Source: Acidihalobacter prosperus (lineage in GTDB: Bacteria > Pseudomonadota > Gammaproteobacteria > DSM-5130 > Acidihalobacteraceae). From it: a stretch of 64,000 nucleotides of DNA. Shown piece after piece: positions 42,963 through 54,714 of the stretch; position 1 is the stretch's first letter; each line of letters begins with the position of its first letter. Below the pieces are notes generated by a model. The model saw only the letters and a list, made by a program, of their open reading frames with translations. It searched no databases and was not told the origin of the DNA. A program made the translations under genes and the position numbers. The stretch spans positions 871,501 to 935,500 of the forward strand of contig NZ_JQSG02000006.1 of NCBI RefSeq assembly GCF_000754095.2, in the 5' to 3' direction.

Positions 42963-44819
42963 ATGCCGCAGTACCGCTCCCATACCACCACCCACGGCCG
43001 CAACATGGCCGGCGCCCGCGCGCTGTGGCGCGCCACCGGCATGAAGGACGGCGACTTCGACAAGCCGATCATCGCCGTCGCCAATTCCTTCACCCAGTTC
43101 GTGCCCGGGCACGTGCATCTCAAGGACCTCGGCCAGCTGGTCGCGCGCGAGATCGAGAAGGCCGGCGGGGTGGCCAAGGAATTCAACACCATCGCCGTGG
43201 ACGACGGCATCGCCATGGGCCACGGCGGCATGCTGTACTCGCTGCCCAGCCGCGAGCTGATCGCCGATGCGGTCGAGTACATGGTCAACGCGCATTGCGC
43301 GGATGCGCTGGTGTGCATCTCCAACTGCGACAAGATTACCCCCGGCATGCTGCTGGCGGCGATGCGCCTCAACATCCCGGCCGTGTTCGTGTCCGGCGGG
43401 CCGATGGAGGCCGGCAAGGTCATCGCCAAAACGCCGGGCGCGGAAAAGATCATCCACCTCGATCTGGTCGACGCCATGGTGGCTGCCGCGGACGACAGCA
43501 ACAGCGACGAGAAGGTCGAGGAATACGAACGCTCGGCCTGTCCGACCTGCGGTTCGTGCTCCGGCATGTTCACCGCCAATTCGATGAACTGCCTGACCGA
43601 GGCGCTCGGCCTGTCGCTGCCGGGCAACGGCTCGCTGCTCGCCACCCACGCCGAGCGCGAGAAGCTGTTCCTGGAGGCCGGGCGACTGGTGGTGGACATC
43701 GCCAGACGCTACTACGAGCAGGACGACGCCAGCGTGCTGCCGCGCAGCATCGCCAGCTTCGACGCCTTCGAGAACGCCATGAGCCTCGACATCGCCATGG
43801 GCGGCTCGACCAATACCGTGCTGCACCTGCTCGCCGCCGCACAGGAGGCGGGCGTGGACTTCGATATGAAGGACATCGACCGCCTGTCGCGCCGCGTGCC
43901 CAACCTGTCCAAGGTCGCGCCGTCCAGCCAGTACCACATGGAGGACGTGCACCGCGCCGGCGGCATCATGGCCATTCTCGGCGAGCTGGATCGCGGCGGC
44001 CTGCTGCACCGCGACGTGCCCACAGTGCACAGCCGCACCCTGGGCGAGGCCATCGAACGCTGGGATGTGCGCCGCGCCGCCGAGGCCGAGCAGGCGCTGT
44101 TCTACGCCGCGCCGGGCGGCGTGCCGACCCAGGTCGCGTTCAGCCAGTCCGCGCGCTGGGATGCGCTCGATCTCGACCGTGAGAACGGCTGTATCCGCGA
44201 CATCGAACACGCCTACTCCAAGGACGGCGGGCTGGCCGTGCTCTACGGCAATCTGGCCGAGGACGGCTGCATCGTGAAAACGGCCGGCGTCGACCAGAGC
44301 ATCCTGGTGTTCGAGGGGCCGGCGCGCATCTTCGAGTCCCAGGACGCCGCCGTCGAGGCCATCCTCGCCGATCGCATCCAAGCCGGCGACGTGGTGCTGA
44401 TCCGCTACGAAGGCCCCAAGGGCGGGCCGGGCATGCAGGAAATGCTCTATCCGACCTCGTACCTGAAGTCCAAGGGCCTGGGCAAGGCCTGCGCCCTGGT
44501 CACCGACGGCCGCTTCTCCGGCGGTACCTCGGGGCTGTCCATCGGTCACGTCTCGCCCGAGGCGGCCGAGGGCGGCAACATCGGCCTGGTCGAGGAAGGC
44601 GACATCATCGCCATCGACATCCCGCATCGCAGCATCCGCATCGCGATTAGCGACGAGGAACTGGCCGCGCGCCGCGCGCGCATGGAGGCCCGCGGCAGCG
44701 ATGCCTGGAAGCCGGTCGGGCGCAACCGCCCGGTCAGCGCCGCGCTGCGCGCCTACGCCGCCATGACCACCTCCGCCGCCAAGGGCGCGGTGCGCGACGT
44801 GAGCCAGGTCGAGCGCTGA
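42963..44819 (+). CDS. ilvD: Dihydroxy-acid dehydratase
   Basis: A 618-residue Fe-S dehydratase of valine, leucine and isoleucine synthesis. It removes water from 2,3-dihydroxy-3-methyl acids to give the branched 2-oxo acids. The family signatures [12 protein letters not shown] and [18 protein letters not shown] hold the cluster cysteines, and the C-terminal block [19 protein letters not shown] is typical. Its length and clear similarity to the Escherichia coli enzyme suggest the [4Fe-4S], oxygen-sensitive kind. GAGGGG precedes the ATG. No other ilv gene is nearby. Confidence 0.97.
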
Positions 44820-48014: not shown

Positions 48015-49907
<1,893 letters not shown>

Positions 49908-50381
49908 TCGCAGGCCGACAGGCACCCATCCAGAGGACGCCAAGTCCAATCGATCATTGGCCAATGGCGTATGGCTGGTGATCGTCGCAGTGGGGGCGTA
50001 TAGTGCGCGGCTCAAACAGTGCGTTTTTCGCGTTGACTAGATTTGTCCGCCATACCCGTCCCAGTCCGGCGTCCATCGACGCCGTGTCGGGTGATTGATC
50101 CACGAGACCCGCCGATCATGGTTGCAGCCTGGGCCGTTCGCAACCTCCGCGTCCGTGGAACCGAAGCGTCTTTTGAATTTTAAGGCGAATGAAAGACTTC
50201 GAAACCTGTTCGGGCAATCCATCCACCGGATGTCGGCGGTCGCCGGCCGGGTGAATGCGTGTTCCCGTCGTATCGCGAGCCAAACCGCCCATGGCGTAAG
50301 CCTGTCCGGCGCGCCGTCGAAAGCGGCGGCCCGGGGATGACCTGTCCCCGCGGGTGATCGCTAGGAAAGAGGAAAGCTATC
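49908..50381. other. Long gene-free leader before the pseudo-helicase gene
   Basis: No convincing gene lies in these 474 bases. The composition is more AT-rich than flanking genes around 49950-50200. TTGACT at 50033 and TATAGT at 49999 look promoter-like, but neither has a partner at the right distance. Leaders this long are common ahead of cold-inducible DEAD-box genes, so a structured regulatory 5' UTR is possible. Confidence 0.45.
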
Positions 50382-51668
50382 TTGGCAGAATCATTTGCAG
50401 ACCTGACACTGGCGGCTCCCTTGCTGGCCGCGGCCGAGGAAATCGGCCTGGTCGCCCCTAACGAGATGCAGTCCCGGCTGATTGCCGCCGTCACCGGCGG
50501 CCGCGACGTGCTGGCCGTGACGCCGGCCGGTAGCGGCGGGACCACGGGCTATCTCCTCGGGTTGATGCAGCTTCTCCTGACGCAGCAGCCTCCCGAGGGA
50601 CGCGGCCCACGCGCACTGATCCTCGCGCCGACGCGCGACCAGGCCATGCAGATCGGACGCATGATCAAGCAGCTCGGGCACGATACCCGTCTGCGTTTCG
50701 GCACGGTGGTCGGGGGGCGCCCGTATCCGACCCAGCATCAGCTGCTGCGGCGCCCACTGGATATTCTCGTGGCGACGCCGGGGCGACTCATGGATCATAT
50801 CCGTCGTGGCCGTGTCCCTTTCGAACGACTGCGCCTGCTGCTGCTCGACAAGGCCGACCAGATGCTCGATATGGGACTGGGCAGCGAAGTGTATAGCATC
50901 GTCGACGCCGGCGGGGAGCAACTCGATCAGACGATGATCCTGTCCGATGCACCCAACGACGCAGTCGGACTGCTGGCCGCCCGCTTGACGCAGGATGCCG
51001 AATCTGTGGGGCAAGGCGACCCGCTTCCCCAGCCAATCGCCGATACGGCATCCGCGGGCAGGGTGACGCAAGAAGACGAGGATGCATTCGAGGAAGACGA
51101 CCGGCAGCCGGCCAGTCTGGCCGCGGATGGCGAGCGCCCCCGCGGACGTACGCCGAGAGCCAAGTCCTCGTCGCGCGGTGCGCGGCGCTCAGGGACGGTC
51201 GGCAATGGCGCCCAGGGCGGCAACGGCAAGCCGGGTGCCTCGGCCAAACCGCCGAGAGGGCCGAGAACGCCCCGGCAGGGCGGCGGGCAGAAGTCCGGCG
51301 GGCAGGGATCGTCCGGGCAGGCTCAGGGCGGCAAAGGCAGCAACGGCAAAGCCGCCAAGGGCGGTCTGCGCGGTCCGGGGCGCCGGGTGGCCGGCGGCGC
51401 CCAGGGGCAGGGCGGCCGAGGCCGGAGACCTTCCGATGTCCGTTTCCCGAGCGATTACGCTTCAGGGCCGGGCGGCGCGGCCAAGGCCGCGCCGGTGGAA
51501 CCGCGAGGCCCGCAGCCGAACGAACCGGTACAGTATTCCGCGGACTACGGATTCTCCGTGGCGCCGGGCGCGCGCAAGCCGGTCAATGTGGTGTATCGCA
51601 GCAAGAGCCGCCGCCGCCGGGAAGAGGGTGACGAAGGCGACGGCAAGGCCGAAAACGTGACCGAATAG
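50382..51668 (+). CDS. Degenerate DEAD-box-like protein with low-complexity tail
   Basis: A 428-residue protein. Residues 1-210 match the first RecA-like domain of RhlE-type DEAD-box RNA helicases: Q motif (F5 ... PNEMQ with Q30), motif Ia APTRDQ, Ib TPGRLMDHI. Yet key catalytic residues are changed: Walker A reads AGSGGT (Lys replaced by Gly53), DEAD reads DKAD (156-159, Glu lost), and SAT reads SDA (188-190). The second RecA domain is absent; instead residues about 215-428 are Gly/Arg/Lys/Ser-rich and disordered. It cannot be an ATP-driven helicase; RNA-binding scaffold is my inference. Start TTG at 50382 with GAGGAAAG upstream. Confidence 0.85.
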   Translation: MAESFADLTLAAPLLAAAEEIGLVAPNEMQSRLIAAVTGGRDVLAVTPAGSGGTTGYLLGLMQLLLTQQPPEGRGPRALILAPTRDQAMQIGRMIKQLGHDTRLRFGTVVGGRPYPTQHQLLRRPLDILVATPGRLMDHIRRGRVPFERLRLLLLDKADQMLDMGLGSEVYSIVDAGGEQLDQTMILSDAPNDAVGLLAARLTQDAESVGQGDPLPQPIADTASAGRVTQEDEDAFEEDDRQPASLAADGERPRGRTPRAKSSSRGARRSGTVGNGAQGGNGKPGASAKPPRGPRTPRQGGGQKSGGQGSSGQAQGGKGSNGKAAKGGLRGPGRRVAGGAQGQGGRGRRPSDVRFPSDYASGPGGAAKAAPVEPRGPQPNEPVQYSADYGFSVAPGARKPVNVVYRSKSRRRREEGDEGDGKAENVTE

Positions 51669-51677
51669 CGTTCTCGG

Positions 51678-52436
51678 TCAACGCCCCTCGCGATGGACCG
51701 CGAAGGGTCCCCATGCCTGATCCGTGGGCATGATTTCCAGAACATTGATGTTTACATGTGACGGCTGGGTCGTGACCCAGTGCACGGCCTCGGCAATGTC
51801 CTCGGCGAGCAGCGGTCGCGTGCCCGAATAGACCGAGCCGGCCTGCTCGGCATCGCCCTTGAAACGCACCAATGAGAATTCGGTCTCGGCCATGCCGGGT
51901 TCGATATTGGTCACGCGTACGCCCGTACCTAGCAGGTCCGATCTCAGGTTGCGCGAGAACTGCTGTACGAAGGCCTTGGTGGCGCCATAGCAGTTGCCGC
52001 CGGGATAGGGCCAGCTGGCCGCGACCGAACCGAGGTTCACGACGTGTCCGCATCCGCGCTCGACCATGCCGGGCAGGAGCATGCGGGTGACGCTCATCAG
52101 TCCTTTGACGTTGGTGTCGACCATTTGTTCCCATTCGTCCAGGTCGGCCCGTTGAGCCGGCCCCAGCCCGAGCGCGAGGCCCGCATTGTTGACCAGTACG
52201 TCGATCTCGGCGTAGGCGCCCGGCAGTCCGGCCACGGCGTCTGCCACCGCGTCGCGGTCGCGGACATCAAGTACGAGTGGCAGCACGCGATCCGGGGGTA
52301 GGGAGGCGGCCAGTGCCTGCAGTCGCTCGCGTCGCCGCCCGCTGGCGACCACGCGCCATCCGGCTTCCGCGAAACGACGGGCAATGGCCTCACCGAAGCC
52401 TGAGGTCGCGCCGGTGACGAAGAGGGTTTTTGTCAT
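51678..52436 (-). CDS. Short-chain dehydrogenase/reductase, YdfG-like
   Basis: A 252-residue NADP-dependent oxidoreductase with the nucleotide-binding motif TGATSGFGEAIA near the start, VNNAGLA, and the catalytic Ser and YGATK pair (NLGSVAASWPYPGGNCYGATK). It is closest in layout to YdfG-type enzymes that act on serine, 3-hydroxy acids or malonic semialdehyde. The Arg of SGRRRERL suggests NADPH. The start ATG 52436 overlaps the stop of the upstream metallopeptidase (ATGA), an operon of two. It converges with the pseudo-helicase gene after nine bases. Confidence 0.93.
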   Translation of the reverse strand: MTKTLFVTGATSGFGEAIARRFAEAGWRVVASGRRRERLQALAASLPPDRVLPLVLDVRDRDAVADAVAGLPGAYAEIDVLVNNAGLALGLGPAQRADLDEWEQMVDTNVKGLMSVTRMLLPGMVERGCGHVVNLGSVAASWPYPGGNCYGATKAFVQQFSRNLRSDLLGTGVRVTNIEPGMAETEFSLVRFKGDAEQAGSVYSGTRPLLAEDIAEAVHWVTTQPSHVNINVLEIMPTDQAWGPFAVHREGR

Positions 52437-53185
52437 GCTTTGACTCCCGATGGGGGATGAGTGGGGGCGCGCTCCAGCCAGCCCGGCAACATCGCCGCGG
52501 CACGATACAGGGCGCGCCGGTGTTCGCGCCATGCCGGGTCGGCTTCCGCGACGACCGCCCAGAAGGCGGGTGAATGATCCAGGTGGCGGATATGCGCCAG
52601 TTCGTGAATGACGACGTGCCGCATCAGGGCGGGACTCAGCAGCAGAAGCTTGGCATTGAGGCTGATATCGCCGTGGCGGTTGCAACTGCCCCAGCGGCTG
52701 CGTTGCAGACGCACGCTCAGGCGCCCATGCCGCAGTCCCATCGACTTGGCCTGCGCGGACAGGAGCGGATGCAGAACGGTGCGCGCACGCTTGCGTAGCC
52801 AGGCGCTGAGTAGGTCGTGCCAGGCATCTTGCGTGCGCCAGTCGCCGCGAAGTCGCAGGCCATCGGTCGTTTCCAGTAGCCGCGGCGGGGTGCGCGCGTT
52901 CCGGTCGACGGGTTCCGCATGCACCTGCAGGTCGAGTCCGGCGGCCGGCAGTAGCAGGCGTTCGGGCGGTCCGGGTCGTGCCGGCAGCGGCAGACGCGCG
53001 AGTTGCCGCTCGATCCACTGGCGTTGCGATTCGACGAAATGCAGCGCATGGGCCTGGCTGATGCCGTGCGGCACGGTGACCACCACGCCGCGCCGGGGCG
53101 ATACGCTGATACGCAGCCGCCGCGCACGTTGCGAGCGGCGAAATTCCCAGTGTTCCAGCCAGCCTAGGGGGGGCGTTGCAGTCAT
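52433..53185 (-). CDS. YgjP-like zinc metallopeptidase (SprT/WLM-related, DUF45)
   Basis: A 250-residue cytoplasmic protein with the gluzincin motif HELAHIRHLDHSPAFW, the zinc-binding pattern of the YgjP/DUF45 M48-related family. Before it are the typical block RSRWGSCNRHGDISLN and the N-terminal domain with RRLRISVSPRRGVVVTVPHG. Substrate unknown. It is the first gene of a pair with the dehydrogenase, with which it overlaps by four bases. Start ATG 53185 is divergent from hemG, 164 bases away. Confidence 0.9.
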   Translation of the reverse strand: MTATPPLGWLEHWEFRRSQRARRLRISVSPRRGVVVTVPHGISQAHALHFVESQRQWIERQLARLPLPARPGPPERLLLPAAGLDLQVHAEPVDRNARTPPRLLETTDGLRLRGDWRTQDAWHDLLSAWLRKRARTVLHPLLSAQAKSMGLRHGRLSVRLQRSRWGSCNRHGDISLNAKLLLLSPALMRHVVIHELAHIRHLDHSPAFWAVVAEADPAWREHRRALYRAAAMLPGWLERAPTHPPSGVKA

Positions 53186-53349
53186 GTTCGGCGCGGTCGT
53201 GTGGCGGTCGTGTGGCGGTCGCTGGCGCTTGGGCGCTGGCTGAGCAGTGTAGAACGAGGGCGGCGAAAGATGCCAGCCGCTAGCGGCTTGGCAAGTCGGT
53301 CCGGAATCGGGTACAAGGGGGCTTCGCGGATACCCCTGATGATCGCTGC

Positions 53350-54714
53350 ATGAACGATTTTCTTATCGTCGGCGCAGGTATTTCCGGGCTGACGGTGGCC
53401 TGGACACTGCGTCGGCGCGGCGCACGCGTTCGGCTGCTGGAGGCGGATGCGTTGGCGGGCGGCAAGATCCGCAGCCGACGTCGCGACGGTTTCCTGCTGG
53501 ATGCCGGCCCCAATTCGCTGCTCGACCGCGGCGAAGGCCTGGGACGCCTGATCGATGCGCTTGGCCTGGGCGAGCGTGTGGTCGAGGCCAATACCCTCGC
53601 GCAGCGTCGCTATGTGGTGCGCGCCGGGCGTGTCATTGCTTTGCCCACAAGCCTGATGGCCTTCGTGCGCACGCCGCTGTTCAGCCTGGGGGCCAAGCTG
53701 CGCCTGTTGAGCGAACCCTGGCGTGCGCGCGCCGAGCATGACGAGAGCGTTGCCCGTTTCGTCAGGCGGAGACTGGGCCCGGAATTTCTCGATTGGGCGG
53801 TCGATCCCTTCGTGTCCGGCGTCTATGCCGGAGATCCCGAACGCCTGTCGGTGCGCGCGGCCACCGGCCGTATCCATGCCCTCGAGGCGGAAGCCGGGTC
53901 GCTGTTTCGCGGCGCACTCAGACGCGCGCGCCAAGGGCGGGCCAGCGGCCCCGTGCCGAAAGGGCGGATGATCAGTTTCCGTGAGGGCATCGGCGAGTTG
54001 ACCGATGCGCTGGCCGAGGCCATGGGCGATGACCTGCTCGTTTCGCGGCCGGTGCATGCCCTGCGGCGCACGGATCGCCACTGGGTTGCCGAGACGTCGC
54101 AAGGGGCCGAAACGGGCGAGACGCTGGTGCTGGCCGTGCCCAGCTTCGCGGCTGCCGATCTGCTCGATCCATTCGATGGCAGGCTTGCCGCCCAGCTGCG
54201 TGAAATCGAATATCCGGGCGTGGTCAGTCTGGCGCTTGGGTTTGCGCGCGAACAGGTCCGCCACCCGCTGGATGGTTTCGGTCTGCTGATTCCGAGTCGC
54301 GAAGGATGCGAAACGCTGGGCGTGCTGTTTTCGTCCACGCTCTTTCCGGATCGGGCCCCCCCGGGACGCGTGCTGTTGACCGCCTTCATCGGCGGCGCCC
54401 GCAATCCGGCCGCCACGGCGCGTGACGACGCGGCGTTGATCGCGACCGCGGTCGACGATCTCGGTCCATTGCTCGGCTTGACCGGTGCGCCGGTGTTCAG
54501 CGAGGTAAGCCGATGGCCGAGGGCGATACCGCAGTACACGGTTGGACATCTCGATCGCATGGCAAACATCGCGCAGGGCCTGAACGGGCTGCCGGGGCTT
54601 CAGGTCGCGGCCAACTGGCGCGGCGGCGTCGCCGTCGGCGATTGCATCAACAACGCTCTGTCTCTGGCGGACACGCTGCTGCCGCCCGTCAGCCCCGGAG
54701 ACGGCCAGGCATGA
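53350..54714 (+). CDS. hemG: Protoporphyrinogen oxidase, HemG/HemY type
   Basis: A 454-residue FAD enzyme oxidising protoporphyrinogen IX to protoporphyrin IX with oxygen in haem synthesis. The start IVGAGISGLTVAWTLRRRGARVRLLEA is the FAD-binding motif, DAGPNSLL and DPFVSGVYAGDPERLSVRA are specific blocks of this family, and NWRGGVAVGDCINNALSLAD closes the FAD site. It is the oxygen-dependent, HemY-like form, so haem synthesis here is likely aerobic. Shine-Dalgarno is weak. Its stop overlaps the cupin gene (ATGA). Confidence 0.93.
   Translation: MNDFLIVGAGISGLTVAWTLRRRGARVRLLEADALAGGKIRSRRRDGFLLDAGPNSLLDRGEGLGRLIDALGLGERVVEANTLAQRRYVVRAGRVIALPTSLMAFVRTPLFSLGAKLRLLSEPWRARAEHDESVARFVRRRLGPEFLDWAVDPFVSGVYAGDPERLSVRAATGRIHALEAEAGSLFRGALRRARQGRASGPVPKGRMISFREGIGELTDALAEAMGDDLLVSRPVHALRRTDRHWVAETSQGAETGETLVLAVPSFAAADLLDPFDGRLAAQLREIEYPGVVSLALGFAREQVRHPLDGFGLLIPSREGCETLGVLFSSTLFPDRAPPGRVLLTAFIGGARNPAATARDDAALIATAVDDLGPLLGLTGAPVFSEVSRWPRAIPQYTVGHLDRMANIAQGLNGLPGLQVAANWRGGVAVGDCINNALSLADTLLPPVSPGDGQA

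Follow-up and report, generated by a model that had tools for sequence, protein, structure and literature searches.

Pseudohelicases as such are already known, although very few have been described. In the open-access literature that we searched, a library that takes in few subscription journals, the only named examples were the eukaryotic Utp25 and, among bacteria, the PriA of Deinococcus. Utp25/Def belongs to the small-subunit processome of eukaryotes; it is a DEAD-box pseudohelicase and is essential for ribosome assembly (PMC9539457). The PriA of Deinococcus radiodurans is a bacterial pseudohelicase that retains nucleic-acid and partner binding (PMC4504706). A further precedent is helix capture free of ATP, reported for CYT-19 (PMC4211656). 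The closest characterised family to the protein studied here is SrmB, which helps to build the 50S subunit and is found in a complex with L4 and L24 (PMC3814787). No bacterial DEAD-box or single-RecA1 pseudohelicase was found in the same open-access searches.

We analysed a window of 64,000 nucleotides from Acidihalobacter prosperus, in which the open reading frame at 50382-51668 encodes a single DEAD-box RecA1 domain followed by a predicted disordered tail (Table 1). The coordinates and the 428 codons given in a preliminary description made from the letters of the DNA proved exact, and the good ribosome site noted there is a GAGGA (Table 1). Pfam DEAD matched residues 28-188 (E 8.5e-28), and only residues 3-209 aligned to DEAD-box models of NCBIfam, the top model being SrmB (NF008394) with 142.7 bits from the RecA1 part only, below its curated cut-off of 507 bits. 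The AlphaFold model had ten-residue mean pLDDT values of 87-97 over residues 1-210, with RecA1 mostly above 90, and values below 50 almost throughout after residue 215; its best Foldseek match was the DEAD-box RecA1 5gju (TM 0.92, by target length). Pfam Helicase_C gave no match up to E = 1, and a RecA2 profile made from intact relatives detected no remnant in the six frames of 49501-53500, which bears out the earlier remark that the second RecA domain is missing and rules out a hidden or frameshifted one.

Table 1. Features of the pseudo-DEAD-box locus, in positions of the window
Feature	Coordinates	Strand	Basis or remark
Possible intergenic leader with TATAGT promoter-like box	49985..50381	+	weakly supported by within-genus conservation
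Shine-Dalgarno GAGGA	50369..50373	+	8 nt before TTG; identical in five orthologues
Pseudo-DEAD-box protein gene	50382..51668	+	TTG start, 428 aa; orthologues in 5/5 genomes of order
RecA1 domain, residues 1-209	50382..51008	+	Pfam DEAD, AlphaFold, Foldseek
Degenerate motif I, TPAGSGGT (AQTGTGKT in intact relatives)	50520..50543	+	catalytic Lys gone
Block of very high conservation (residues 104-150) that contains the GG and TPGR (Ib) motifs: LRFGTVVGGRPYPTQHQLLRRPLDILVATPGRLMDHIRRGRVPFERL	50691..50831	+	invariant-position counts
Degenerate motif II, DKAD (DEAD in intact relatives)	50847..50858	+	alignment
Degenerate motif III, SDA (SAT in intact relatives)	50943..50951	+	alignment
Gly/Arg/Lys-rich variable low-complexity linker, residues 210-352	51009..51437	+	pLDDT, dN
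Conserved C-terminal motif, residues 353-410: VRFPSDYASGP...QYSADYGFS...RKPVNVVYRSK	51438..51611	+	order-specific conservation

Compared with the described systems, the protein shares the RecA1 fold, the GG and TPGR motifs and a basic low-complexity tail with the SrmB and CsdA (Psy1082-type) helicases of Gammaproteobacteria, its nearest relatives by profile and tree, but lacks their RecA2, P-loop Lys, DEAD Glu and SAT and carries a new C-terminal motif. It resembles Utp25, which is proposed to be non-catalytic, in its DEAD-box fold, lost catalytic motifs and disordered extension; Utp25, however, has two RecA domains and is eukaryotic and essential, whereas the present protein has a single domain and a putative role and is bacterial. 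Deinococcus radiodurans PriA is likewise a bacterial helicase changed in one lineage, where it lost ATPase and unwinding activity and kept nucleic-acid and partner binding, although it is a DNA replication-restart protein from another helicase family.

We surveyed all five genomes of the order, which fall into two genera (Acidihalobacter and kin), and found orthologues at the same locus in every one, with open frames and a common TTG start and GAGGA ribosome site. The gene order is alike in both genera, with ilvD, a CBS protein and an ABC-F ATPase upstream and an SDR and an M48-type protease downstream (neighbours named from their sequences only). Within the genus, dN/dS lay at 0.04-0.09 in RecA1 and at 0.02-0.04 in the C-terminal motif, figures that are rough, though well under 1, because synonymous sites are near saturation; the Gly/Arg/Lys-rich linker, which has an acidic patch close to its start, showed the highest dN and is the fastest-evolving part of the gene. 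RecA1 has kept its fold under strong purifying selection, which weighs most on the GG/TPGR stretch. Gene decay, or an error of sequencing or assembly, might account for lost motifs, a lost domain and a long tree branch. However, the frame is open in five separate genomes, the start, the ribosome site and the gene order are conserved, dN/dS is low and blocks are invariant across two genera; this rival is left with hardly any probability, and we regard it as refuted by the syntenic orthologues and the low dN/dS. The preliminary description had proposed a maintained non-helicase protein with its fold kept, to be checked by dN/dS and to be abandoned if orthologues were missing or frames broken; neither was found in the five genomes, and this part of the proposal is supported. 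Phage origin was rejected, the gene having no PHROG match.

Two further observations concern the flanks. The ilvD protein (42963-44819) is 99% identical to that of genome G002 and 95% to that of G004 in the sister genus, and only 81% to that of G001, unlike its neighbours; this suggests gene replacement in G001. In the leader, identity to G001 is 89% over 141 bases and identity to G002 is 79% over 126 bases, at a distance where synonymous sites are near saturation, and no counterpart was detected in the sister genus. It holds small inverted repeats, its folding shows no gain over shuffled sequences (z 0.0), and a known RNA family was rejected there, as Rfam returned no match.

The substitutions reported for the catalytic motifs (K53G in Walker A, DKAD and SDA) were all confirmed by alignment. 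Across the five orthologues the P-loop Lys (residue 53) is replaced by G/G/G/R/Q, with the whole P-loop destroyed in one member (ASDGGNQK), DEAD by DKAD/DKAD/DKTD/DGVD/DAVD (Glu to K/K/K/G/A) and the SAT of motif III by SDA, SDA, SDA, AGR and SRH, the Ala-Thr pair being gone in 5/5; in A. prosperus itself this region reads LSDA where intact relatives have FSAT. Motif III SAT couples ATP to unwinding. The preliminary description had suggested looking for orthologues with the same substitutions; the same catalytic sites are lost in all five, but the exact residues are shared only within the genus. Identical sites filled differently suggest one loss of catalysis before the genera split, with the sites drifting afterwards.

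For an outside comparison we examined the 26 next-closest proteins from 369 sampled genomes of the class. All 26 are intact SrmB/CsdA-like helicases that keep both domains as well as GTGKT and DEAD; their motif III is standard, with GAT in one of them, and P-loop Lys and DEAD Glu occur together in every one. The intact relatives tested scored 441-469 bits on the SrmB model, and since this is below the 507-bit cut-off we call them SrmB-like rather than SrmB. In the tree the five orthologues formed one clade (100/100) on a long branch, and their grouping with the SrmB/CsdA-like helicases had moderate support (85/84 only). In several other families (L061, L104, L106 and L107) an intact SrmB-like helicase gene and an ABC-F gene lie at most about 5 kb apart, a proximity that the pseudohelicase gene shares. 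Of the features that define a DEAD-box helicase, the RecA1 fold homology is present (Pfam, Foldseek), while the P-loop Lys/DEAD Glu pair, motif III SAT and the second RecA domain (motifs IV-VI) were tested for and are absent; because of these three the protein is not classed as a DEAD-box helicase, and judging from its residues it almost certainly has no helicase activity. It does show what marks a pseudohelicase in sequence, namely a kept helicase fold, missing catalytic residues and purifying selection on the gene.

Some of the nucleotide site survives. The Q-motif residues Phe5 and Gln30 and both motif II aspartates are invariant in 5/5 orthologues, so nucleotide binding without hydrolysis is conceivable, and the protein could be a switch in which an adenine nucleotide, held through the Q motif, alters partner or RNA binding. 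We consider this improbable: the P-loop Lys has become Gly, Arg or Gln, the P-loop of one member is ruined, the RecA2 that would close the site is gone, and the two aspartates may be structural. Among positions conserved in the intact relatives, 5 of 15 in the ATP site are kept in all five orthologues, and survival was higher for the RNA motifs and the block at residues 104-150 (Fisher p 0.018).

That block holds 39 invariant positions out of 47, compared with 42 of 162 in the remaining RecA1 (Fisher p 3.6e-12; block permutation in 5-residue chunks, 0/20000). Because the block was spotted in the alignment before testing, the permutation, which takes in every 47-residue window, gives the fairer figure. 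Identity between the genera is 89% for residues 104-150 versus 41% for the rest of RecA1, whereas the same comparison in intact helicases gives no contrast (68% versus 66%). Constraint has shifted within RecA1 towards this block. The GG and TPGR elements contact the RNA backbone in DEAD-box proteins, and none of the RNA-face residues Arg85 (motif Ia), Gly111-Gly112, Thr132 and Arg135 varies among the five orthologues, although in the sister genus motif Ib reads TPSR in one member and TPAR in the other. The parts that are kept are therefore the 47-residue RecA1 stretch and the short C-terminal motif, the latter absent from the preliminary description, which had instead tentatively placed binding in the Gly/Arg/Lys-rich tail. 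That emphasis was not upheld, as the Gly/Arg/Lys-rich stretch varies more than any other part; ordinary active relatives have basic tails much like it, so it is probably inherited and not diagnostic.

The same block admits a different reading, in which the RecA1 face and the C-terminal motif bind protein partners, such as a ribosomal protein or a second DEAD-box helicase (RhlE, DeaD, RhlB), and regulate or recruit them, RNA contact being incidental. The block has changes specific to this family at some distance from the classical RNA contacts, with Arg141, Pro146 and Glu148 among the invariant ones, and these suggest that the interface is specialised. Moreover, structural work on Mss116 reportedly showed that duplex RNA binding in DEAD-box proteins depends largely on RecA2; with RecA2 gone, RecA1 by itself may be a poor RNA binder and its conserved face could bind protein instead, which makes a protein-binding role a serious rival. 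The order also retains other active DEAD-box helicases, of DeaD and RhlB type and mostly also of RhlE type. On the other hand, the classical RNA contacts are invariant too, the tail is basic, and RraA, a known SrmB/RhlB partner that binds RecA2 or the C-terminal extension and not RecA1 (PMC3814787), had no match in the five genomes (TIGR01935) and was rejected as docking partner. Taken together, we judge a protein-only role unlikely, though clearly less so than the nucleotide switch.

The C-terminal motif has the order-wide consensus FPSDYA.GP ... QY.ADYGFS ... KPV..YR.K and is located only at the pseudo-DEAD locus within the genomes of the order. Sharing with another protein was rejected, since the motif was found neither elsewhere in these genomes nor in the 369-genome class sample.

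We favour, with a probability of roughly 0.6, the explanation that the gene encodes a conserved pseudohelicase that works independently of ATP as an adaptor for RNA or RNP; the adaptor role taken by itself is only slightly favoured. The sequences indicate that an SrmB/CsdA-like DEAD-box helicase, before the split of the two Acidihalobacter-type genera, lost its second RecA domain and ATP-hydrolysis residues and gained at its C terminus a new motif that has since been conserved. RNA would be held without ATP by the RecA1 face that remains, together with the disordered basic tail; rRNA is the likeliest candidate, because the parent family acts in ribosome assembly. The C-terminal motif would dock a partner, so that the protein would serve as an RNA chaperone or RNP-assembly adaptor instead of an active enzyme. 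This half helicase, with one surface kept and a new tail motif, is therefore probably a non-enzymatic RNA or ribosome-assembly adaptor.

Ribosome assembly in particular, a reading drawn from ancestry and neighbouring genes, is plausible at somewhat below even odds. The ABC-F ATPase family has ribosome-linked members, and the ABC-F neighbour together with the 50S role of SrmB offers a suggestive hint, not proof. In none of the order's five genomes did we see an active helicase of SrmB-like type, and the main text of the published A. prosperus salt proteome does not mention helicases. More tentatively still, the protein may be a lineage-specific RNP-assembly factor made from half a DEAD-box helicase that replaces an active SrmB-type helicase in the ribosome assembly of halo-acidophiles, with the ATPase discarded, the GG/TPGR face as functional surface and a C-terminal docking motif added. 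A conserved bacterial DEAD-box pseudohelicase with RecA1 alone would in any case provide a clean natural test of what this fold does without ATP, and would help to separate the structural from the enzymatic part that DEAD-box proteins play in ribosome assembly; the contrast between the lost catalytic residues and the hyperconserved face offers precise mutational targets.
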